Assembly: GCF_001678905.1 (NCBI RefSeq)
Contig: NZ_CP012117.1
Span: forward strand, 1,550,001-1,614,000
Reading direction: 5' to 3'
Source: Dermabacter vaginalis
GTDB taxonomy: Bacteria > Actinomycetota > Actinomycetes > Actinomycetales > Dermabacteraceae
Length of the DNA: 64,000 nucleotides
Below are positions 9,103 to 51,727 of this stretch, piece by piece; position 1 is the stretch's first letter, and every line of letters begins with the position of its first letter. Both the position numbers and the translations under genes were made by a program. The notes under the pieces are model-generated. The model saw nothing but the letters and a program-made list of their open reading frames with translations. It had not been told where the DNA came from and did not search any database.

Positions 9103-9729
9103 GTGAGTTCTACAACGACGAAACCAGGTAACGACCGCATCATCTGGGTGGACTGCGAGATGACCGGCCTCGACAAGGCGAATGATGCCTTGATCGAGGT
9201 GGCGGTTCTCGTCACGGACGGGGATTTAGAAGTCCTCGGGGACGGCGTCGATGTCGTCATCAAACCCCCGGCAGGCGCGCTCGAGTCGATGGATGATTTC
9301 GTGCGGAACATGCACACGACTTCGGGTCTGCTCGAGGAGCTCGACGGTGGCATCACCCTCGTCGAAGCCGAAGAGGCGTGCCTCGCCTATGTCAAGGAGC
9401 ATTGCCCCGAGCCCGGCAAGGCGCCTCTCGCGGGCAATTCGGTGGGCACCGACCGTGCTTTCATCGACCGCGACCTCCCGGAGTTTGCCCAGTTCATGAG
9501 CTACCGCACGATCGATGTCTCAAGCCTCAAGGAACTCGCCAAGCGCTGGTTCCCGCGCGTGTTCTTCAATACGCCGGAGAAACACGGCGGCCACCGCGCA
9601 CTCGCCGATATTCGCGAGTCGATTCAGGAGCTCAAGTACTACCGCGAAGTTCTCTTCGTGAAGGAGCCCGGCCCCACGAGCGATGAGGCCCGAGCAGCCT
9701 CGAAGAAGTTCGAAATCACGCCTCAGTAG
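9103..9729 (+). CDS. orn: Oligoribonuclease
   Basis: 208 aa 3'-5' exoribonuclease of the DEDDh family that degrades 2-5 nt RNA to mononucleotides, the last step of mRNA decay. Motifs are complete: DCEMTGLD (Exo I with D and E), NSVGTDRAFI (Exo II), and HRALADI with the catalytic His and Asp (Exo III). Start GTG 9103; the first residues (SSTTTKPGND) are a little longer than usual. A 39-base gap separates it from the epimerase-family gene, so the two may be co-transcribed. Confidence 0.96.
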   Translation: MSSTTTKPGNDRIIWVDCEMTGLDKANDALIEVAVLVTDGDLEVLGDGVDVVIKPPAGALESMDDFVRNMHTTSGLLEELDGGITLVEAEEACLAYVKEHCPEPGKAPLAGNSVGTDRAFIDRDLPEFAQFMSYRTIDVSSLKELAKRWFPRVFFNTPEKHGGHRALADIRESIQELKYYREVLFVKEPGPTSDEARAASKKFEITPQ

Positions 9730-9768
9730 ACTCTTCCCGCACTCTCACACCACACAGGAGTTTTGACA

Positions 9769-11049
9769 ATGACGACACCCCTCCTTCTCGAGGCAACGAA
9801 GACCGACCCCGCGCATGCCGCGTGGCTTGAGGATGTGGGGAAGGATCTACTCGAGTGGGGCGCAGCCTCGCGCACGGAGCATGGCTTCGGATGGCTCGAC
9901 TCAAGCGGTACTCTCGATCCGGATCACGACCTCGAACTGTGGATCAATTGCCGCATGACACACTGCTTCGCCCTCGCAAGCATCCGCGGCACCGAGTCCT
10001 CTCGCGATTATGCCGAGCTCGCAGCCCACGGCCTCTCGGCGCTTTCGGGCGCGTTTCACGATGTCGAACACGGCGGTTTCTACTCGATCATCGCCCGTGA
10101 AACGGGTGAGCCGGTTGATGATTCGAAGCAGGCCTACGCCCACGCGTTCGTGGTACTCGCCGCTTCGAGTCTCGTCGAGGCAAAGATCCCTGGCGCGGGC
10201 GAACTCCTTGAAACCGCGCTCGAGGCACATGCACGCTTTTTCGAATCCGAGCACGAGATGTTTGCCGACACCTACTCGCGCGATTTCTCGAACTGCGAGG
10301 ACTACCGCGGGATCAACGCGAATATGCACAGTGTCGAGGGACTCCTCGCAGCCTCGGCAGCGACCGGCCGCCTCGAGCTTTTCGAGCGCGCCGCGGTCAT
10401 CGTCGAGCGCGCGCTCGCGTTCGCGAAGGGCAACGGCTGGTTCCTGCCCGAGCACTTCACGACCGCGTGGGAGCCCCGCCCCGACTACAACCGGGAGGAG
10501 CCCGCCCACCCGTTCCGCCCCTATGGTGCAACGATCGGCCATTCGTTTGAATGGGCGCGCCTCGCCCTGCACACCGCGGCCGGTTTCGAGGGGCAGTTTT
10601 CCGACGCCACCCGGGCTCAGGAACGCGCCTCAGCTTTGCGCGACGGCGCGCTCGCCCTCGCCGAGAAGGCATGTGAGACGTGGGGCATCGACGGTGACGG
10701 CGGCTTCCCGTACACGGTGGACTGGGATGGCTCACCCGTCGTGCACGAACGCATGCACTGGGTCGTCGCTGAGGCCATCGGTGCGGCCGCTGTGCTGTTC
10801 CGCACGAACGGCGATGCCGTCTGGGAAGAACGCTATGAGTCCTGGTGGCAGTGGGCGAAGACGACAACCATCGTTCCCGGCAGGCTCGGCAGCTGGGTCC
10901 ACGAGCTCACCGCCACGGGCGAGATCAGCGAAACGACCTGGAAGGGCCAGCCAGACATTTACCACGCCTACCAGGTCACGCTTATTCCGCGCCTGCCCGC
11001 ATGGCCGCCTCTCGCTCACGCCGTCGCTACGGAAGCTCGCTCTCGATAA
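9769..11049 (+). CDS. N-acylglucosamine 2-epimerase (AGE) family sugar isomerase
   Basis: 426 aa, an (alpha/alpha)6-barrel enzyme family that includes N-acylglucosamine 2-epimerase, mannose isomerase and sulfoquinovose isomerase. Recognisable family blocks are NCRMTHCFALA, QAYAHAFVVLA, GINANMHSVEG, PYGATIGHSFEWARL, and HWVVAEAIGAAA, carrying the conserved His residues of the active site. The set looks closest to the aldose-ketose isomerase (mannose isomerase/YihS) branch, but the substrate cannot be read from sequence. ATG 9769 has CAGGAG eight bases upstream and is preferred over TTG 9763. The 3' end overlaps the convergent methyltransferase gene by 23 bases. Confidence 0.88.
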   Translation: MTTPLLLEATKTDPAHAAWLEDVGKDLLEWGAASRTEHGFGWLDSSGTLDPDHDLELWINCRMTHCFALASIRGTESSRDYAELAAHGLSALSGAFHDVEHGGFYSIIARETGEPVDDSKQAYAHAFVVLAASSLVEAKIPGAGELLETALEAHARFFESEHEMFADTYSRDFSNCEDYRGINANMHSVEGLLAASAATGRLELFERAAVIVERALAFAKGNGWFLPEHFTTAWEPRPDYNREEPAHPFRPYGATIGHSFEWARLALHTAAGFEGQFSDATRAQERASALRDGALALAEKACETWGIDGDGGFPYTVDWDGSPVVHERMHWVVAEAIGAAAVLFRTNGDAVWEERYESWWQWAKTTTIVPGRLGSWVHELTATGEISETTWKGQPDIYHAYQVTLIPRLPAWPPLAHAVATEARSR

Positions 11050-39329: not shown

Positions 39330-40534
39330 GCCAGTCACAGATGGACGAGCTCGCGCGGATTCTCGAACAATCGGGCAACGAGAAGGAAGTACGTTCTGCG
39401 GTTTATCAACCTGGCGGCGTCGCACGCCGCAAGGTGTTAATGATGGGGTGTATCGGGCTAGCAGCCCTGGCCGGAGGCGGTGGCGCGGTCGCCCTCGGTA
39501 TGCAGGTGTTGCGTGAACCGACCGACTTGCAGGCGAGTGCACAGCCCGGGCAACACGAAGGGACCCACTCCCCCAGCCCCGGCACGGTGAGTGAACAAAA
39601 CGTGATCTGGCGAGGTTCCACGCAAAAAGGCGCACGGCCTGTCCTCGCGCCTCGTGGGACGGGAGCAGTGATCGACTCCAACGGGCATGTGCAGATCGTG
39701 GCAAGCGATGGAACGGTCACGACGTCTAGCGACGTTACGCCGCAGGCGGCACTTGTTGCGGGCACGCTGGGTGGCAAAGACGTCATTGCCTGGACGACGG
39801 GACGAGTCATGTCCTGGTGGACGGCGCAGGACGGTATTCAACGTGTGGAACACACGCGCCCACTCGGTATCACGGCGGTGGCCGGAGGCGTCCTTGTCTT
39901 CGACAACGGCGATTGGTCAGGACGGTTGGATCAGAAGCAGGTCACGCAAATCGCCGCAGGAAACGACTCGATCACTATTGGCGTGATGGAGGACGGGACC
40001 GCACTTGCGGCAACGGCTGACGGTGTGGTCACGAAGTGGGCGAAAAGTGGCGATATGCAAGTGCTCCAGCCCACAGCACCGCGCGAGAACGTCCAGGTAC
40101 GGCGCGCGGTCGGTATCTACCGAGGGCACCTCGTGTTGGTGTGGGATGACCCCGCGGCACAAGACGAGAACCGGCAGGTCCCATTCAGCGTGATGAGTTT
40201 GGACGATGGTGCAACGAAGGCAACAGCAACCGTGCCGCTTGAAGCGGCGGTCAACGCGAAGATGAAGCGGTCGCGGCACGGTGCGGAGTTTGCCGGAAAA
40301 CTGATCGCTACGGATGGCACTGTCGAGGAGGCACCGGAGGAGTTCACCGTGGTGGATACCGCAGGGGATTACTTGCTTGTGAAAGACGAGGACGGTACTC
40401 GGTGGTTAGACGTGCAGACCGGGCAAGTCACGAGTAGCGATGAAGAAGTGACATATCAACTCACCAGCTCGCTTACACAGTGGATCGTGCGAGAAACAGA
40501 ATGCGTGTTGGTGCAAATGGAAGGACAACGATGA
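39326..40534 (+). CDS. Membrane-anchored beta-propeller-like extracellular protein
   Basis: 402 aa. A short cytosolic N-terminus (SQSQMDELARILEQSGNEKE) resembling an anti-sigma-like start, one membrane helix (about residues 36-60, VLMMGCIGLAALAGGGGAVAL), then a long beta-rich part with repeated elements such as GGKDVIAWTTGRVMSWW, GGVLVFDNGDWSGRL and MEDGTALAATADGVVTKWA, spaced as in WD40- or PQQ-like propellers. Probably displayed outside the cell for contact or regulation of transfer. ATGA overlaps on both sides. Confidence 0.65.
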   Translation: MSQSQMDELARILEQSGNEKEVRSAVYQPGGVARRKVLMMGCIGLAALAGGGGAVALGMQVLREPTDLQASAQPGQHEGTHSPSPGTVSEQNVIWRGSTQKGARPVLAPRGTGAVIDSNGHVQIVASDGTVTTSSDVTPQAALVAGTLGGKDVIAWTTGRVMSWWTAQDGIQRVEHTRPLGITAVAGGVLVFDNGDWSGRLDQKQVTQIAAGNDSITIGVMEDGTALAATADGVVTKWAKSGDMQVLQPTAPRENVQVRRAVGIYRGHLVLVWDDPAAQDENRQVPFSVMSLDDGATKATATVPLEAAVNAKMKRSRHGAEFAGKLIATDGTVEEAPEEFTVVDTAGDYLLVKDEDGTRWLDVQTGQVTSSDEEVTYQLTSSLTQWIVRETECVLVQMEGQR

Positions 40535-41775
40535 GTAGACGAGAAGTACGTAATGCTCAGCGCCGTGCCACACGGGCGCGGAAAGTGGCCGCAGTAGTGG
40601 CCGCTATGACAGCATTCGCTACCGGTTGTGGAGGCAGTGGCACGGGGCAGACGGCAAGCGAGAGTTCTTCCTCCAGTGCATCAGCGTCGGCCACGCCAAC
40701 CTCGGTAGCTGAGGATGGCGGCACACTGGGCGCCAGCGGCGACGGTGTGTTTGCGCAGGCAGAAGAGGCGGGGCAAGTGGAGGCGCTGCGTCCGTCGGAC
40801 TCGAAACCTGGAACGAACAATGAAGGTCGTGAGCTGTGGGCGTCCGGACGTGACTCGGATGATGCCGTGGAACGCTCAGAAGGCCGCGACGATATTCAGT
40901 TCAACCAGCACGCTCAGCCAGAGGACTCGAGCCGTCGCGTAAATACGGACTTCACGCTCGGTGGGCAGGACGAGGATCGCGTCCCGCAGGCGAAGCCGGA
41001 GGATGACCCGTTCACGCCGAAACCGGAGTCGGAAGGCGCGATTGAAGCAGCCCCCGCAGTGGATACGACCAAGCCCGATACGCCAGAATCGGGAACTGAG
41101 GAGGGCAACGACGGTTCAGATAGCGGTAAGGGAACAACGAAGCCTAGCGAACCTCGCCCGGAGCCGGAGCCGGAGGAGCCAGGAATACCAGGTGGGGATG
41201 AGCAGCCCACTGACCCGACAGAACCGCAACCCGAACCTGAACCTGAACCTGAACCACAGCCCGATCCCCAGCCGGAGGAGCCGGGAACGCCAGGTGAGGG
41301 TGAGCAGCCCACTGACCCGACGGACCCGCAACCCGAACCTGAACCTGAACCACAGCCCGAACCGCTGCCCGAGGAGGAAGTGGACACTGATGGCGACGGT
41401 GTGCCGGATGAGGTCGAGGAGCAGATCGGTACGGATCCGAACGTTGCCGAGGACGAGTTCCCGCTGATCCCACTTATCCCAGCGGATAGCGACGAGGATG
41501 GTGTGCCGGATGAGGTCGAGGAAGAAATCGGTACGGATCCGCAAACAGAAGATGACGAGTTCCCGCTTATTCCGCTCAAGCCTGCCGACCCGGTGGATGA
41601 GGTGCCACTTACCGAATTGACGCCGGCAGAACCGATTGAGGAAACACCGGCGCCGGAGAACCCGGTCATTGGTGAGCCGATTGAGGAGGAGCAGCCTGTC
41701 CTCGAAACGGCAAATACCAGTTCAGGTGATGAAACTGCCGCAACAATGACGGGAGAGACAACAGAGGTCGGGTAA
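40531..41775 (+). CDS. Lipoprotein with Pro/Glu-rich stalk and calcium-binding type-3 repeats
   Basis: 414 aa from ATG 40531 (AAGGA upstream). A basic signal sequence ends in a lipobox (TAFATGC, Cys at about residue 33), so it should be lipid-anchored outside. A low-complexity acidic region follows, then two EPEPEP-type stalks (about residues 205-290), then two thrombospondin type-3 calcium motifs, DTDGDGVPDEVEEQIGTDP and DSDEDGVPDEVEEEIGTDP, each with a FPLIPL block after it. Looks like a rigid surface stalk, possibly a mating-contact adhesin. Last gene before a strong hairpin. Confidence 0.75.
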   Translation: MSRREVRNAQRRATRARKVAAVVAAMTAFATGCGGSGTGQTASESSSSSASASATPTSVAEDGGTLGASGDGVFAQAEEAGQVEALRPSDSKPGTNNEGRELWASGRDSDDAVERSEGRDDIQFNQHAQPEDSSRRVNTDFTLGGQDEDRVPQAKPEDDPFTPKPESEGAIEAAPAVDTTKPDTPESGTEEGNDGSDSGKGTTKPSEPRPEPEPEEPGIPGGDEQPTDPTEPQPEPEPEPEPQPDPQPEEPGTPGEGEQPTDPTDPQPEPEPEPQPEPLPEEEVDTDGDGVPDEVEEQIGTDPNVAEDEFPLIPLIPADSDEDGVPDEVEEEIGTDPQTEDDEFPLIPLKPADPVDEVPLTELTPAEPIEETPAPENPVIGEPIEEEQPVLETANTSSGDETAATMTGETTEVG

Positions 41776-44080: not shown

Positions 44081-44128
44081 AAGCGTTCGGTCATATCGCG
44101 CAGGGCGGTGAGCAGGTGAACCGGTTCC

Positions 44129-47100
44129 ATGCGGAACTGGCATAGACACCTATTGAAGAAAGGCGCAGAAGGCGTGCTCGAGCAAGGAATGTTGGACCTA
44201 GGCGGCATTTTCAACACAGATGACAACGCTGAAAAGACGGCGAAAACACGTGCGGCGGCCGAGCGGGCACGGTTGCAGCGACGGCCCTCTCCTGGGGTGA
44301 TGTCGCCTTGGGGCAAAGTGCTAAGGATCGCGCGCGTCGAGGCGGATGTGTGGTCAGTGGACGCCGAAGATTGCTCGGGCTACTGGGTTGGCAAGGCGCA
44401 CAGAGGGCAAGTGCCGGAGATCGCACGCACGGATACTGCGGAAAATCGCAACGGATGGTATCGTGAAGGACGTGATGCAGGTCACATTATCGGCGTGTGG
44501 CCTGGGGCCACTGTAGAGACGTTGACGCGCACGGATGACATGTCGTGGGCGGAGGCGACGACACAATTGCGCCGGTGGCTCGAGCAAGCAACACGCTGGC
44601 TCGAGGAACGCGAGGTCGCGGCCGACATAATCGCGGCGGTAACGCAGCGGTTTGAAAACGCGACTATTGAAGTAGAGGAGTTGCCCGATGAAATCGAACC
44701 AGAAGATGAGCCGAACGCAGTTAGAGACGTTGAACGCGGAGATGCGCCTGTCCGCAGTGAGCGAGGACTTGATGGAGCGCGAGGAGCGCGAGATTCAGGA
44801 GTGGGAGGAGAACCCGCGCAGGTGGGCGCTTCCGATGCCGGACGGAGCGAAGGACCCGGCGGATCAGATGTTCCACCACAGCGAACTACCGCGCCTGTCG
44901 TGGATGCTTCCGAAGTGGGTACAGCGGGAGTTCCCGCAGACCTATTTGACGATGTTGGATCGCTTGTGGGGAGTTCTGCACATAGAGGGAGAAGAACTGC
45001 CGATGACGATCACGGACGTGAGGTTTCCGAAGGACCCAGCGGAAGAAGTGAAGGTGCGGACGGTGGAGAGGGAGATCGACGCCGTGGAGGGCCTGAGAGT
45101 GATGATGCGGCAAGTGCAGGAGGCGTACGACGCGACGCCGGAAGAGGACGCAGTGATCGACCGAGCATTGCGGAATCTGGAGATTCAGATGGAGGTCTTT
45201 CGAACGCAATACCCGGATCTGATCTAGAAGATTCGCGCGGCCCCGCGCTCATGAGCGCTGCCGACGTAAGCGACGGTGCGGAGTACCGGTCGAGCGAGTT
45301 GGCAGTTCCGTCTGGGGCGAAAGCGAGGTTCCGCGCGAATCTTGCAGCGGTGGAGCTGGTGCACGAGCTGGAGCGTGAGCAGCGGGCCGCGACAAGTGAG
45401 GAGCAGCGAGTCCTCGCGGCGTGGTCAGGGTGGGGTGCACTCCCCCATGTGTTCGAGAACCGGGAGGGGTGGCATGAGGAGCACGAGCGGTTGCGCGAGG
45501 TACTCACGGCGGACGAGTATCGCGCGGCTGAGCGCAACACGCTGAACGCGCACTACACTGACCCAAAGATCGCTGACGCGATGTGGCGCTCCCTGACGAG
45601 GTTCGGACTTGGCGCGGGCGCGAGTGTACTCGAACCGGGGTGTGGATCGGGCACGTTCATGGCGACAGCGCCGGAAGATACGCGGATGATTGGCGTTGAG
45701 CTTGATCCGTTTACAGCGCGCGTAGCGCACTATCTCCACCCGAAACAGCAGGTGCGTAACGAGGGCTTCGAGAATACTCTTCTGCCGAAGAATGGTGTGG
45801 ATGCAGCCATTGGCAACGTGCCATTCGGCAAATTCACGCTTCTGGATTCGAAACACAACCCGCAGCGCTTGACTATCCATAACCACTTCATTGTGAAGTC
45901 GTTGGCCGCGACGCGCCCCAGTGGTCTGGTTGCGGTGATTACAAGCGGTTTCACGATGGACGCGGGAGGATCGAAGGCCCGCACGGAGATGGCCAAGCTC
46001 GGGAAGCTTGTAGCGGGCGTTCGCCTACCAACGGACGCATTTAAGGACGTGGCAGGCACAAGTGTCAACACTGACATTTTGGTGTTCCAACGCCACGATG
46101 AGGATATTGCCGTGCCGGACATGGCGAAGCTGTCGTGGGCGGGCACGGAGGAGCTAACTGAAGGCGTCGCGGTCAATAGATTCTTTGCCCAGCACCCAGA
46201 ACGAGTGCTGGGGGAAATGACAACACGGTCGGGCCAATTCGGTCCCACGCTTGTAGTGAAGGATGAGAGCGGCACTCCCCTCGCGGAGCGAGTCGAGGAG
46301 CAGTTGCTGTTCCAGATGCGCGCGAACGCCTCGCCAGTGCGGGAACGCGACACGAACCTCGATATTGACGCCTCGGACGTGGAGCCAGGTCTATACGTGC
46401 CGGTGCCGGAGGAGCAAAAGCCCGTCATGGGCATGTTCGTCGATGTGCGCAAGCTCTCGCAGGTGGACGAAAGTGTCGGGCGTATCGTGAGGTGGACGGG
46501 CACTGAGTGGGAAGACGCAGGTGTTCGCAAGAACGCCATGAAAGAAACACTGGCCCTCATGGAAGTGCGTGACGCTGCCCGTAGTGTCGTGGAAAGTCAG
46601 TCCGATAAAGACAGCACCGAGAACGAACGCGAACAAGCGCGCCACATTCTCAACGTAGCCTACGACCGGTACACCGCGCAGTATGGCCCGATCAACCGTT
46701 TCACCCAGTCCACGCGCAAGCCCTCTGAACGCGCCATTGACAAGTACGTCAAGAAGCGCACGGATGAGTGGCACACGTCTTTGAAGCAAAGTGGGTATAG
46801 CTCGGCCGACGTTAAAGAAATGGAGCCAAGCAGTGCTCAGCGCGACGAGTGGCGCGAGGAGGCCATCACTGACCTCACTGACGTGCGCAAGACACAAAAG
46901 CATCTAGCGGCACTGGGCACTGACCCGTTCCTCGGCCAGCTCATTGGGCTGGAGAATTTCGACGAAGAAACTCAGAGTGCAACGAAGTCAATGATTTTCA
47001 CGCAGGATATTGTGTCGGCGCGCCTGGAGGACCGCAGGGCCGAGACAATGCAGGATGCCGTGGCTATCAGCATGGACGAGTATCAGCGTATCGACCTGTC

Positions 47101-50100
47101 ACGCATCGGGCAGTTGCTCGAGCTGAGTGAAGAAGAAGTCCGAGAGCAGATCATTGGCACAGCGTTCATCGAACCGGCAACTGGGGAACTGGAAGTTGCA
47201 ACGCACTACCTGTCAGGGAACGTCCGCGACAAGCTTGTAAAGGCCCGAGAAGCAGCGAAGCATGATTCTCGGTTCAATGCGAATGTTGACGCGCTCGAAG
47301 CTGTGCTGCCTGAGTGGATTGCTATCGAAGACATCGATCTTTATCCCGGCCTGAGCGTCTTGGACGAGCATGCTTATGAGCGGTTCGCTACGGAAACCTT
47401 TGGTGGTGTGGAGCTGAAGATTGAGTTGACGGCGGAAAGTGGCGAGTGGAAGGTTACCGCGCCCGCACGTAAAGCGTTCGGAGACTCAGTTCTGCACCAG
47501 TACGGGACCGAGCACCGTAAGCCCTCGGACTTGCTGGAATCGGTAATGAACCAACGTAGCGTCATCATCCGCACAACCAGAGACTCGGATAAGCCGAAGG
47601 TGGATGAGCAGGAAACGGCGCTCGCGCGCGCAAAGATGGACAGTATTGTGCAAGCGTTCAGCAAGTGGGTGCTTGATCAGCCGCAGCTGCGCGAGAAGAT
47701 CGAGCACGAGTGGAACTATCGTTTCAATCAGTACGTAAGTGCCGATTACGGACGATTGGGTGACGCTCTAGCGTTGCCAGGCCTTTCGGACGAGTTTATC
47801 CCTCACCCATATCAGCGTGAAGCGGTCGCGCGCATCGTGAATGAGCCGACGACGTTGTTGAACCATGTTGTGGGGGCAGGCAAAACGGGCACGATGCTTA
47901 TGGGCGCAATGGAGCTGCGACGTACAGGCCAAGCACGTAAGCCGTGGCTTGTCGTGCCTAATCACTTGGTAGAGCAGGTGACTCGCGAGGCAACACAGTG
48001 GTATCCGAACGCGAAGGTCATGTCAATCCCTACAGGCCAGTCACCGAAAGAACGGCAGATGTGGATGACCCGCAGTGCAGGGCAGGACTGGGATTTAGTT
48101 GTGTGCCCGCAGTCGGTGTTCACCCTCATGGGTGTTGATCCGTCGCGTCAAGCGAACTGGATGAACACGAAGATCGAGGAAATGAGAGAAACAGCGTCCA
48201 CCATTGACACTGGTACAGCAAATGGCAAACGCCTGGTGAAGCGTTTGAACACGGATATTGCGAACCTCGAGACAAAGTTGAACCGGCTCATGGAGAAGAA
48301 AGACCGGGGTCTCACGTTCGAGCAGACGGGCTGCGACTTCCTCATGGTGGACGAAGCCCACCACTATAAGAATCTCGCACGCGCCTCGGATGTTGCAGAC
48401 CTGGCGCATTCCGGCTCGCAAAAGGCCGCAGACCTCGAAATGAAACTGGAAGTGCTCCGCGAGTTTCGTGAAGATGTCGCACGGCGTGATGGGACATGGC
48501 ACGAAGATTATGTGCCACACGTGGCGGTGTTCGCGACAGGTACTCCGGTCGCAAACTCCCTTTCGGAGATGTGGGTGATGCAGCGGTACTTGCGGCCCGA
48601 CCTACTCAACGCACAGGGAACGTCGAGCCTTCGAGAATGGGGCCGTGCGTTCGCCCGCTCAGCGTCGCAGCTCGAGCCAACCGCTGGCGGTACATGGAAG
48701 ATGAAGGACCGCGTGCGTAGCTTCGTGAACGTACCGGAACTAATGAGTACAGCCCAGGCATTCATGTCCACGGTCACGCGCGATGACATCACGGCCACGC
48801 TACCCAATATCACGGGAGGAGAGCCGACAATAATCACGCGGGACTTGTCTGATCAAGCACGTGAAAAGATCGAAGAACTCGCCAGCCGAAGCAATAACCT
48901 TCCTAAGGATCAAAGCCTGGACAACATGCTCAAGATCAACAACGAAGGCAAACTTTTGTCTATCGACCCGCGCCTCGTTGGTCTTGACGCGGATGAGGAC
49001 GGCGGGAGGCTCGCCGACGTGGCCGAACAGATCGTGCACATTCACGAGGAAACGAAGGACCGCGAATACACCGACGCCAACGGCGAAGTCGAACCGGTAG
49101 CGGGTGGCCTCCAGATTGTTTTCTGCGACCGTGGTGTGCCCGACGGTTCGAGTACGGTAAACCTCTACGAAGTAATGAAGGACAACCTCGTCGAGCGTGG
49201 CCTCGATCCAGATAGCGTCGCGTTCATTCACGATGCAGACAATGATGCTGCGCGCGGCGAACTGTTCGAGCGCTGCCGTAGCGGGCAGGTGAACGTCCTG
49301 ATCGGTTCAACCGACAAGATGGGCACGGGTGTGAACGTCCAAAAGCGCGCGACGGCGATTCACCATGTGGATGTGCCGTGGCGTCCGGCTGACTTGGAGC
49401 AGCGTAACGGGCGTGTATTCCGTCAGGGTAATCAGAACACGGATGTGACCGAATGTCGGTATGTCACTATCGAGTCGTTCGATCAGTTGCTATGGCAAAC
49501 GATTCATCGAAAAGCCAAGTTCATCAGTCAGATCATGAACGGCGACGCAGCTAGCCGCACCGTCGAACAGGAAGACGATGAGGTGACGCTGAGTGCGGGC
49601 GCGATCGCCGCGATTGCTTCGGGTGACCCGATGGTAATGCGGCGCGAAGAAGTGATGCGCGAATTGGAGCAGCTGGAGGCACTAGAGAAGGCGTACCGGA
49701 GCCAGAGTCTACGAGAACGGTCCCAAGTCAAGAGCCTGCGCGCAGGTATTGAGCAGAGTAAAAAAGTCATTGCGGATCGCGAAAAGATCAGGCCACTGAT
49801 CCGCGAGGAGCTGGGCTACGTTAATGCGCGCGGCGAGTCCTTTGAAACTGCCGGAGAGGCCAAGGCCGCTATCACTGCCACACTGTTAGATAACCGGCAG
49901 ATGTTGCTCGAAGGCGGCAGCGTCGATTTGGGCAGGCTCGACGGGTTGAAGATTCATGTCAGGGGCGGAGTACACAGGTGGTTCGTCGAAGCAACGGATG
50001 CTCCCACAGTCATGTGCGATTTCGAGCCGAAGATCGACAGGATCAGTAAGACCGACGTCGTGCAGCGTATGCGCAACGTGTTCAAGAACATCGACAACAC

Positions 50101-51727
50101 GATTGCCAAAAACCAGAACAGTATTACCCACTCAGAGAACCGGATCGAGGACATTGAAGCGCACATCGCTAGCAGCAGTTTCGAGCAACGCGAACGCCTA
50201 GACGCCCTCAAAAATGAGTTGGCCGATATTGATAAGCACCTCGGACTAGACAGCGACATGGACGAGACGGTGGTCGAGGACTGGCTTGTCTACGCCAACG
50301 AACTGATGGAAGTGCGTCCCGATACCACGAAGAATTATGAGATGACGGCACGTAACGCGAAGAAAGGGGACCTGCTCCTCTTCGAGAAAAGTGGTGGGCC
50401 GTTGATCGTGAAAGATCCTGCGGCGGAGGATCCCGAAAACGTTCTCATGCGAGAGGACGGCACCTCGAATGGACTCCAACGGTTCGTGGCCCCGTTCCAC
50501 ACGGGCAAGCTCATTGCGCGGCAATTTAGTCAGTTGACTGAGTGGCAGCAACGTGCGGCGAAAAGGGATGCGCACGCGGCTATCCGACGAAACTTCGAAG
50601 CTATAGAACCAGGGAGCCTCGTCGTGCTGAACGTGGACGGCGCTTGCGTGGAGGCTCGCACGATCACACGGAAAGCGGGACAGCTCGAGTCGGGCATTGA
50701 CTTCGAGATCACAGGACCCAGCGACAAGATCAACGAGCACATCCTTCTGAGTAGCACGTGGCATACCCCCACCATGATTTTGCAGCCAGAGGCGTACACG
50801 GAGGAGGACCTGCGGGGGCGTGCGCGAGTGCGCAATAAGCTCACACACAACGAATTAATGAGCGGTGAAACGGTGACGGCGATGTACCACGCGGAGACCG
50901 GAGAGAAGCTGCCACTGAAAGCGCCGTTCGACGAAGAGTATGCCGAGAACGGTTACGGCTTTCGGTTTGTGCGGTCGATCCAACAGGTGCTCGAAGAGAT
51001 GGGCCACAAAGAACTGCATCCATCAGACCTGGTGTTCGATACTGCTTCACCCCGCTATGCGGGTGAGGCCATCACTGCGGACATAGTTGGGGAGGTAAAA
51101 GTTGGGAGGCTAATGCCGGGTGACCGAGTGCGCCTGAGTGATCTCACCGATGGTACGCCTTCGGACGAGTGTGTGACTGTTCAAGAAGTGGATCCAAATA
51201 ACCTAATTACGAAATATAACGTTCGGTACAGGACGGATGATGGTCAACGAGTGACTGCCTCCGTTCCGGAGCCGAGGATGATCCCGGTCGTGAATCGGTG
51301 GGATCGCAGTTTCGGTGCGTCAGAACGACTTAGGAGCGTCTATGGGTCCGTGGAGGAGGCGGGCGTGAATACCGAGTTCGATACCGGTAACCGTGAGGTT
51401 CGTTCCGTCATAGCGTTCACTCGCTCTGGAAAACCGAAAATTGCGACATGCAGGCCGATGGCTGGTGGTCAACATGGGTTCGAGTTCGAATATGAGAGCG
51501 GTGAAGCTGAGTCGTATTTTACGGGGAGGAGTTATAAACAAGTGTGGGAGGTAACAGAACGGGCGGATATTACGGAATTGCAGTGGGTCTTGCGTAATGA
51601 CACTCCCGTTGGTACGCGAGGTGAGAGCGATTTGGAGAAGAAGTCAGGTTCGCCTTTGCCGGGTGTGCCTGGTCATGATGTCCCTGATCCTGGCATGGAG
51701 GGTCCGAGGAACGGGTTGAACATGTAG
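44129..51727 (+). CDS. Giant methylase-helicase (N6-methyltransferase-like + SNF2-type helicase)
   Basis: 2,532 aa. Residues 1-190 form a unique N-terminal domain. Residues 190-370 are a Ser/Gly/Asp/Arg-rich linker that overlaps a second gene. Next is a methyltransferase-like domain with LEPGCGSGTFMA (about 500, AdoMet motif I) and GNVPFGKF (about 563, in place of NPPF). A superfamily-2 helicase follows: HPYQREAVARIV, VGAGKTGTML (about 1245), MVDEAHHYKN (about 1407), GTPVANSLSEMW, and RNGRVFRQGNQN (about 1757). Then coiled coil (1850-2050) and C-terminal domains. Such proteins occur in phages and conjugative elements, P1 DarB being a known relative in concept, and protect transferred DNA from restriction. 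The exact role here is inferred. The start codon has only a weak ribosome binding site. Confidence 0.88.
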   Translation: MRNWHRHLLKKGAEGVLEQGMLDLGGIFNTDDNAEKTAKTRAAAERARLQRRPSPGVMSPWGKVLRIARVEADVWSVDAEDCSGYWVGKAHRGQVPEIARTDTAENRNGWYREGRDAGHIIGVWPGATVETLTRTDDMSWAEATTQLRRWLEQATRWLEEREVAADIIAAVTQRFENATIEVEELPDEIEPEDEPNAVRDVERGDAPVRSERGLDGARGARDSGVGGEPAQVGASDAGRSEGPGGSDVPPQRTTAPVVDASEVGTAGVPADLFDDVGSLVGSSAHRGRRTADDDHGREVSEGPSGRSEGADGGEGDRRRGGPESDDAASAGGVRRDAGRGRSDRPSIAESGDSDGGLSNAIPGSDLEDSRGPALMSAADVSDGAEYRSSELAVPSGAKARFRANLAAVELVHELEREQRAATSEEQRVLAAWSGWGALPHVFENREGWHEEHERLREVLTADEYRAAERNTLNAHYTDPKIADAMWRSLTRFGLGAGASVLEPGCGSGTFMATAPEDTRMIGVELDPFTARVAHYLHPKQQVRNEGFENTLLPKNGVDAAIGNVPFGKFTLLDSKHNPQRLTIHNHFIVKSLAATRPSGLVAVITSGFTMDAGGSKARTEMAKLGKLVAGVRLPTDAFKDVAGTSVNTDILVFQRHDEDIAVPDMAKLSWAGTEELTEGVAVNRFFAQHPERVLGEMTTRSGQFGPTLVVKDESGTPLAERVEEQLLFQMRANASPVRERDTNLDIDASDVEPGLYVPVPEEQKPVMGMFVDVRKLSQVDESVGRIVRWTGTEWEDAGVRKNAMKETLALMEVRDAARSVVESQSDKDSTENEREQARHILNVAYDRYTAQYGPINRFTQSTRKPSERAIDKYVKKRTDEWHTSLKQSGYSSADVKEMEPSSAQRDEWREEAITDLTDVRKTQKHLAALGTDPFLGQLIGLENFDEETQSATKSMIFTQDIVSARLEDRRAETMQDAVAISMDEYQRIDLSRIGQLLELSEEEVREQIIGTAFIEPATGELEVATHYLSGNVRDKLVKAREAAKHDSRFNANVDALEAVLPEWIAIEDIDLYPGLSVLDEHAYERFATETFGGVELKIELTAESGEWKVTAPARKAFGDSVLHQYGTEHRKPSDLLESVMNQRSVIIRTTRDSDKPKVDEQETALARAKMDSIVQAFSKWVLDQPQLREKIEHEWNYRFNQYVSADYGRLGDALALPGLSDEFIPHPYQREAVARIVNEPTTLLNHVVGAGKTGTMLMGAMELRRTGQARKPWLVVPNHLVEQVTREATQWYPNAKVMSIPTGQSPKERQMWMTRSAGQDWDLVVCPQSVFTLMGVDPSRQANWMNTKIEEMRETASTIDTGTANGKRLVKRLNTDIANLETKLNRLMEKKDRGLTFEQTGCDFLMVDEAHHYKNLARASDVADLAHSGSQKAADLEMKLEVLREFREDVARRDGTWHEDYVPHVAVFATGTPVANSLSEMWVMQRYLRPDLLNAQGTSSLREWGRAFARSASQLEPTAGGTWKMKDRVRSFVNVPELMSTAQAFMSTVTRDDITATLPNITGGEPTIITRDLSDQAREKIEELASRSNNLPKDQSLDNMLKINNEGKLLSIDPRLVGLDADEDGGRLADVAEQIVHIHEETKDREYTDANGEVEPVAGGLQIVFCDRGVPDGSSTVNLYEVMKDNLVERGLDPDSVAFIHDADNDAARGELFERCRSGQVNVLIGSTDKMGTGVNVQKRATAIHHVDVPWRPADLEQRNGRVFRQGNQNTDVTECRYVTIESFDQLLWQTIHRKAKFISQIMNGDAASRTVEQEDDEVTLSAGAIAAIASGDPMVMRREEVMRELEQLEALEKAYRSQSLRERSQVKSLRAGIEQSKKVIADREKIRPLIREELGYVNARGESFETAGEAKAAITATLLDNRQMLLEGGSVDLGRLDGLKIHVRGGVHRWFVEATDAPTVMCDFEPKIDRISKTDVVQRMRNVFKNIDNTIAKNQNSITHSENRIEDIEAHIASSSFEQRERLDALKNELADIDKHLGLDSDMDETVVEDWLVYANELMEVRPDTTKNYEMTARNAKKGDLLLFEKSGGPLIVKDPAAEDPENVLMREDGTSNGLQRFVAPFHTGKLIARQFSQLTEWQQRAAKRDAHAAIRRNFEAIEPGSLVVLNVDGACVEARTITRKAGQLESGIDFEITGPSDKINEHILLSSTWHTPTMILQPEAYTEEDLRGRARVRNKLTHNELMSGETVTAMYHAETGEKLPLKAPFDEEYAENGYGFRFVRSIQQVLEEMGHKELHPSDLVFDTASPRYAGEAITADIVGEVKVGRLMPGDRVRLSDLTDGTPSDECVTVQEVDPNNLITKYNVRYRTDDGQRVTASVPEPRMIPVVNRWDRSFGASERLRSVYGSVEEAGVNTEFDTGNREVRSVIAFTRSGKPKIATCRPMAGGQHGFEFEYESGEAESYFTGRSYKQVWEVTERADITELQWVLRNDTPVGTRGESDLEKKSGSPLPGVPGHDVPDPGMEGPRNGLNM
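44688..45227 (+). CDS. Nested gene in another frame inside the methylase-helicase gene
   Basis: 179 aa in the +1 frame relative to the host gene. ATG 44688 has AGGAG seven bases upstream, better than the signal of the host gene itself. The product looks folded: helices (QLETLNAEMRLSAVSEDLME, EREEREIQEWEENP), Trp-rich LPRLSWMLPKWVQREFPQTY, MTITDVRFPKDP, and long C-terminal helices. Codons are rich in third-position G/C like the neighbouring genes, whereas the host frame over this stretch uses many GGA, AGA, GAT and GTT codons and encodes disorder. This supports true overprinting. Function unknown; no family recognised. A fully accidental open frame is unlikely but cannot be excluded. Confidence 0.7.
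   Translation: MKSNQKMSRTQLETLNAEMRLSAVSEDLMEREEREIQEWEENPRRWALPMPDGAKDPADQMFHHSELPRLSWMLPKWVQREFPQTYLTMLDRLWGVLHIEGEELPMTITDVRFPKDPAEEVKVRTVEREIDAVEGLRVMMRQVQEAYDATPEEDAVIDRALRNLEIQMEVFRTQYPDLI

Follow-up and report, generated by a model that had tools for sequence, protein, structure and literature searches.

A linker within a giant methylase-helicase gene of Dermabacter vaginalis appears to be overprinted by a second gene on the same strand. In the window, that is, the whole stretch of 64,000 nucleotides analysed here, the giant gene (positions 44129–51727, forward strand) encodes a predicted protein of 2,532 aa, and the nested gene, an ORF with an ATG start at 44688–45227 (forward strand) in the +1 frame, encodes a predicted acidic protein of 179 aa. 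Overprinting at this place is strongly supported by sequence comparison. The comparisons also support the view that selection acts on a real gene in the +1 frame, with the long frame kept open through it, and that the position, hereinafter the slot, recurs in methylase-SNF2 giants, both those of actinobacterial mobile elements and those of many phages, the slot gene being in the +1 phase wherever this was tested. The window product seems to represent a second family, without detectable relation to the common one, in the same slot. The whole is probably best explained by an overprinted pair, with the start of the nested gene at 44688 and its product being a small partner of the giant; no expression data bear on this.

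The giant gene is preceded by a ribosome-binding-site-like AGGTGA (44114–44119, forward strand). Its product consists of an N-terminal DUF7007-like region (44297–44629; 25.9 bits, just under the cut-off of 27 bits), a linker, an adenine methylase, the conserved module of which begins with the segment at 45308–46357 (row 1 of our survey alignment, A2), and an SNF2-type helicase with the ResIII/SNF2-type N-terminal domain at 47798–48373 and Helicase_C at 49208–49429, all on the forward strand. The ResIII, Helicase_C and SNF2-rel_dom matches are above the cut-off, and that of N6_Mtase is just below it (17.8 vs. 20.4 bits). With a methylase domain followed by an SNF2-type helicase in one polypeptide, the giant qualifies as DarB-like; its methylase part is about 30–38% identical to phage proteins annotated as DarB-like and, among the 40 matches listed, 39–53% identical to plasmid proteins.

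Where the window giant has the DUF7007-like region near its N-terminus, many relatives have only a short motif. Motifs such as QLDLF or QLEFDLW are seen near the giant N-termini, for instance, in the surveyed loci L011, L054 and L047 and in the 44129 region of the window, and resemble a sliding-clamp-binding motif. An N-terminal motif was counted in 66 of 82 loci, but the pattern is loose and provides only a hint. A different observation concerns the gene at 40480–41775 of the window, which encodes a protein rich in proline/glutamate repeats; the opposite strand there also has long open frames.

As far as can be judged from the part of the paper available to us, the window giant is of the same kind as the polyvalent module of an SWI2/SNF2 ATPase, an adenine methylase and LPD36 (Iyer et al. 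2017, PMC5512222): it likewise has methylase-like and SNF2-type helicase domains and is situated among genes read as conjugation genes. In the main text of that paper, the words "overlapping", "overprint", "TnpV", "DUF7007" and "clamp" are not used, and "reading frame" occurs once, in another sense.

The distance between the starts of the nested and the giant ORFs (44688 − 44129 = 559) corresponds to phase +1, and AGGAG, resembling a ribosome-binding site, is located at 44676–44680 (forward strand), 7 nt upstream of the nested ATG. The codon log-odds score was trained on the neighbouring genes, the body of the giant included. Over the shared bases, the score per codon is 0.399 for the nested frame, −0.135 for the giant frame and −0.868 for the third frame. 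In sliding windows the coding signal leaves the giant frame for the nested one near 44670 and returns at about 45230, the giant frame having positive scores before and after these points. Both frames are open over the shared bases: across the nested ORF the giant frame (44690–45229, forward strand) has no stop codon and yields a linker rich in Ser, Gly, Asp, Arg and Glu. The G+C content of the nested codon positions is 0.62/0.36/0.80. All this agrees with the preliminary description, which had pointed to an open +1 frame with a well-spaced AGGAG, G/C-rich third codon positions, and unusual codons and a Ser/Gly/Asp/Arg-rich linker in the long frame.

When the nested protein was held and its synonymous codons were shuffled, 2.4 stops were expected in the giant frame and none is observed (P = 0.041); when the giant protein was held, 2.8 stops were expected in the nested frame, and again there are none (P = 0.016). 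Taken alone, these values are modest evidence, and the comparative evidence is stronger. The nested ORF is more than a chance opening when its coding signal and its homologues are considered together with the recurrence of such ORFs in other giants.

A stand-alone homologue of the 179-aa product, the search for which had been suggested earlier, does exist. Among 47 genomes of the same family (the source genome included), genome G046 has a free-standing gene of 188 aa with 32% identity over 167 aa (E = 7.4e-20). Since the equivalent of the giant frame in this homologue contains 7 stops, with 6.6 expected by shuffling, an open giant frame is not inherent in the nested protein. No giant was found in G046 at E of 1e-10 or better. 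The neighbourhood of the homologue features genes read as conjugation genes, and those nearby include ones that we take to encode a coupling protein, a DUF4913-like protein and an ArdC-like protein. The homologue and the upstream gene of an HTH protein (L093:9083–9649 and 9646–10197) overlap by 4 nt.

Another homologue, this time nested, was identified by a profile search of 396 Micrococcales genomes, an even draw from a larger group. It is found in one genome, G177 (E = 1.5e-4), where it occupies phase +1 of a different methylase giant, within the linker ahead of the methylase domain. The giant frame has no stops in the overlap against 4.0 expected (P = 0.009). Ahead of the possible nested starts there is GAGGAGGT, and AAGGAG is present ahead of a giant start. 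The longest nested ORF has a negative codon score (−0.15), and its third positions are 78% G+C. Given this E-value for one among 396 genomes, the assignment of the G177 member leans on its position as well as on the score. The window-family homologues are 31–32% and 27% identical to the compared members. Thus the rarer family of the window would occur as a nested gene in two distant giants and as a free gene in a single genome.

No further members were found in the 396 Micrococcales genomes, in 394 genomes at the class level, or in 18 genomes of the G177 family. The 179-aa product or the three-member alignment retrieved no relative from the genome contigs and viral contigs, and tblastn against plasmids, with this product and both its relatives as queries, gave no match. 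Two candidate relatives were rejected: for L008 the E-value against the window-family profile was about 4e-4 among six or eight sequences but 0.75 among all loci frames, and for L085 it was about 0.01 when only six or eight sequences were searched. A faint W...RW stretch is all that these two share with L209. The latter has a +1 slot product (L209:1028–1468) with an NKWALP stretch faintly similar to the window family; it may link the slot families.

For the survey of the slot, genome contigs were scanned with the methylase module A2, and the best 80 of 272 relatives were retained; the titles of these loci are actinobacterial or unspecific, except for L058, a MAG labelled Acidobacteriaceae. Together with six giants from other sources, this makes 86, mostly actinobacterial, and a +1 ORF overlapping the upstream linker of the giant was observed in all 86 examined. 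In 82 of them the slot product belongs to one TnpV-like family (single-linkage blastp, E below 1e-4), the exceptions being L008, L085, L038 and L081. The profile of this common family matches 83 loci. Its core is in the +1 frame in all 82 loci that could be framed, and also in the 83rd, L010, which is outside the 86, its methylase match having not yet been placed and its +1 member having been shown later.

Over 16,935 codons of the common family, shuffling of synonymous codons predicts 209 stops in the giant frame, but only 11 occur; 627 are counted in the third frame. In 73 of the 82 loci the giant frame runs without a stop beyond the end of the core. A stop occurs after the profile start of the core in nine, in seven of these within 26 nt, and deeper in L009 and L071. 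This test is not wholly free of circularity, as the profile ORFs had been chosen for overlapping an open giant frame. Still, the counts bear on the possibility that the region comprises three genes, one for DUF7007, one for the 179-aa product, and a methylase-helicase gene starting from, for example, ATG 45251, with the intervening frame open by chance and the linker not working. Such an arrangement would explain why the giant frame looks non-coding within the overlap, and giants of relatives are indeed publicly annotated as starting downstream of the slot gene. However, it does not account for the avoidance of stops; moreover, two of the truncated annotations (L006, L007) begin inside conserved sequence, the short N-terminal motif in the giant frame precedes the nested gene in many loci (on our reading of the alignments), and there is no ribosome site at a fitting distance upstream of 45251. 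We consider three separate genes improbable, and retain the overprinted pair.

In the evenly drawn set, the methylase module is present in 24 of the 396 Micrococcales genomes, with 26 matches. All 20 strongest ones (E of 3e-79 or better, the window included) carry a +1 slot ORF, 19 of these ORFs with a positive codon score. Fourteen belong to the common family, two (the window and G177) to the window family, and four are unassigned; two of the loci, L201 and L202, look like copies of one element. The other six matches are weaker (E of 9e-64 at best); three of them lack a slot ORF, and three show a DUF4913-like ORF in its place.

Comparison of substitutions provides evidence for selection in both frames. 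In the common family (217 non-independent pairs), nested codon positions 1, 2 and 3 differ by 0.20, 0.18 and 0.31, so the nested third positions, which are the first positions of the giant, change fastest on average. Fourfold synonymous differences, counted at same-residue sites, amount to 0.275 for the overlap and 0.380 for the giant body; of the 37 disjoint pairs kept from 880 passing the filters, 28 have the lower value in the overlap (P = 0.0026), although uneven recombination could affect this comparison. The nested proteins are less alike than the giant body (70% vs. 82%). We conclude that the nested frame is under selection at the protein level, with no close pair available for the window family itself, and that the long frame is constrained over the overlap, as seen from the stops and synonymous changes in the common family and from the window and G177.

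One more alternative is that the ORF is an untranslated shadow of GC-rich sequence. Long alternative ORFs are indeed common in GC-rich giants: in the bodies of 80 giants, 378 kb in total, the alternative frames of the same strand have 301 other ORFs of 110 aa or longer. However, the codon score is positive for none of these, compared to 71 of 80 slot ORFs in the actinobacterial survey (9 of 80 are not above zero); it should be noted that training of the control score on the giant body favours low values for the alternative frames of that body. A shadow would have no free-standing homologue such as that in G046, nor would one slot family be expected to extend down to 45% GC. The slot ORFs at the lowest GC, described below, do not outscore the giant frame, as a shadow would not; nevertheless, we regard this alternative as extremely improbable.

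The reading proposed in the preliminary description, a structured protein in one frame and a tolerant linker in the other, is thus upheld by the free and nested homologues and, in the common family of the slot, by the constant phase, the avoidance of stops, the reduced synonymous changes and the control. The two-frame substitution comparison that it had called for is provided by the common family, and stops in the nested frame of homologues, which would have refuted it, are not seen in the sole nested homologue of the window family.

In the viral contigs, the best 80 of 129 loci were considered. In 76 of 80, the +1 frame, the only one examined here, contains an ORF of 70 aa or longer close to the methylase domain. 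When both other forward frames were examined, an ORF of at least 100 aa was found in 75 of 80, the best one being +1 in all 75. In 62 of 75, more than 1,000 codons of uninterrupted giant frame precede the methylase part, which again is difficult to reconcile with three separate genes. Forty-eight viral slot products form one family by blastp, with members from 45% to 70% G+C. The codon score is positive for 56 of 75 slot ORFs of at least 90 aa and is not above zero for 19; at 35–41% G+C (L123, L174, L179) the giant frame scores no lower than the slot ORFs. In a shuffle test of 11 hand-picked low-GC loci there were no nested-frame stops in any, with P ranging from 0.005 to 0.53. Differences at fourfold sites are 0.427 in the body and 0.309 in the nested region (33 disjoint pairs, some poorly aligned), and the nested third positions are the fastest in only 20 of these 33 pairs.

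The profile of the 48-member family finds a +1 ORF in phages Atu_ph08, Itty13, LASTA, PEp14, VvAW1, Mwe-JY07 and PBC5. With the actinobacterial profile, such a +1 ORF is also detected in phage BcepIL02 (E = 4e-4). In the stretches examined of these eight phage records, none has the slot ORF annotated as a separate gene; the record of Itty13 has only opposite-strand ORFs at the slot. No slot ORF was found in DarB of phage P1, whose gene starts just before the methylase part, or in one streptococcal giant. The actinobacterial and phage slot families match each other with the best sequence-profile E-value of 5e-8 among 49 sequences (2e-5 in reverse). Their common descent is likely from these matches, but it remains unproven, as the profile-profile probability is only 14%.

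In phage PBC5 the nested domain (L186:2114–2380) is fused in frame as the tail of the preceding large orf33. PHROG 938, called endolysin, ends with this domain, and hence carries a misleading tail. The fusion could be taken to mean that programmed frameshifting, and not internal initiation, produces the nested domain, which would then end a shortened form of the giant as an alternative C-terminus. However, it may itself result from a sequencing or assembly frameshift. Moreover, the slot start codons are enriched in Shine-Dalgarno matches: matches of 5 or more precede 32% of 72 slot starts (from 82 loci, ten of them without a candidate), the frequency in 758 control windows being 9.6%; for the viral loci the figures are 67% of 76 starts and 17% of 770 windows. 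Many slot members also share similar starts, MNLNNW or MNKYG, by our reading of the sequences. This makes frameshifting very improbable compared with initiation of the nested gene at its own start.

The slot products are acidic, with pI of 4.7 both for the window product and for the median of the common family, and 4.5 for the free homologue. The suggestion that the product looks folded holds for the common family, whose structure model is helical with pLDDT block means of 92–97 over residues 1–80; for the window product the model is poor (pLDDT 62, helical at low confidence), and its folding is unconfirmed. The common-family model has no match at E of 0.001 or better in the PDB and viral fold searches. 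The common family is weakly similar to TnpV (PF14198) over part or most of the profile, but all these matches are below the cut-off: two scans, of 10 and of 9 slot products, each turned up two products with such a match, the best having 20.7 of 27 bits. The 179-aa product of the window has no match to this profile and does not qualify as its member. Its only Pfam match, FluMu_N, is under the cut-off (E = 0.23), and there is no NCBIfam match at E of 0.1 and no PHROG match at 0.01. No relation was detected between the window family and the TnpV-like or phage slot families, and no function is indicated by the fold or family matches of the slot products.

The resemblance to TnpV suggests that the nested gene, while real, may have its own task unrelated to the giant, such as that of a DNA-binding or excision helper like TnpV of Tn4451, its location being accidental. 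Apart from the weak PF14198 matches, several relatives of the L004 slot product are named TnpV in plasmid annotation, a postulated role of TnpV in excision is mentioned in the part of PMC3158075 available to us, and the overlap of the free-standing homologue with an HTH gene would be consistent with such a task. On the other hand, the slot accompanies the methylase module on plasmids, at chromosomal loci and in phages (LASTA, PEp14 and Atu_ph08 among them), and the same slot is used by two families without detectable relation. Hence we consider an unrelated task unlikely, while a task tied to the giant fits an association that spans phages and conjugative-type elements.

In the overprinted pair, as we infer it, ribosomes would start independently at 44688 on the message of the giant, so that a small acidic helical protein is produced in step with it; there are no transcript, ribosome-profiling or proteomic data. 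The usual filler of the slot would be the TnpV-like family, the window slot holding a rarer one. When a small acidic helical protein is encoded together with a large transferred one, it is often a chaperone or an inhibitor. The small protein may then be a dedicated partner of the giant that, for example, keeps it soluble, inactive or loadable, and the giant may be delivered with the incoming DNA, protecting it from restriction. The partner role is inferred from linkage alone, and the lack of a giant at E of 1e-10 or better in G046, which has the free homologue, counts against it. According to the accessible portions of the respective papers, a DarB-like protein is present in the virion of phage JC1 (PMC9144972), and DarB-like methylase-ATPases have been proposed to modify entering DNA (PMC5512222). 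Only tentatively, and with slightly more doubt than trust, can we generalise that the giants of phages and conjugative elements, with hosts from several phyla, carry a conserved +1 gene in a slot filled by at least two unrelated-looking families, and that its product is an obligate partner controlling the giant before or during delivery.

Genes embedded in other genes are already known as such; it is the breadth of recurrence of this slot that is unusual. To our knowledge, few long same-strand overprinted genes have been established in bacteria. The products of Rz and Rz1 work together. These spanin genes resemble the slot pair in that a small gene is wholly embedded in another one in a different frame, as described in the part of PMC9144972 available to us, but the proteins and their function are unrelated. 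The ardD gene in tniA of Tn5053 is an antirestriction gene that likewise is hidden within a gene of a mobile element; however, judging from the available part of the source (PMC3533173), it lies on the complementary strand, while the slot gene is on the same strand in the +1 frame. Among the matches listed for the open-licence literature, no title or abstract opening describes a nested slot gene.

The giants L006:3064, L007:2854 and L008:2510 are annotated as starting downstream of the slot gene, with the open frame extending further upstream; perhaps this reflects avoidance of overlaps. Inferring from such annotated starts in relatives, the slot gene has probably been missed because annotation avoids long overlaps, and our results suggest that some giants have been assigned incorrect starts. 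The slot recurs across a broad range of mobile elements with GC content from 35 to 70%, the coding signal being clearest above about 45%, and is situated in a class of proteins thought to carry DNA past host restriction. It readily lends itself to testing whether such giants depend on a partner made together with them.
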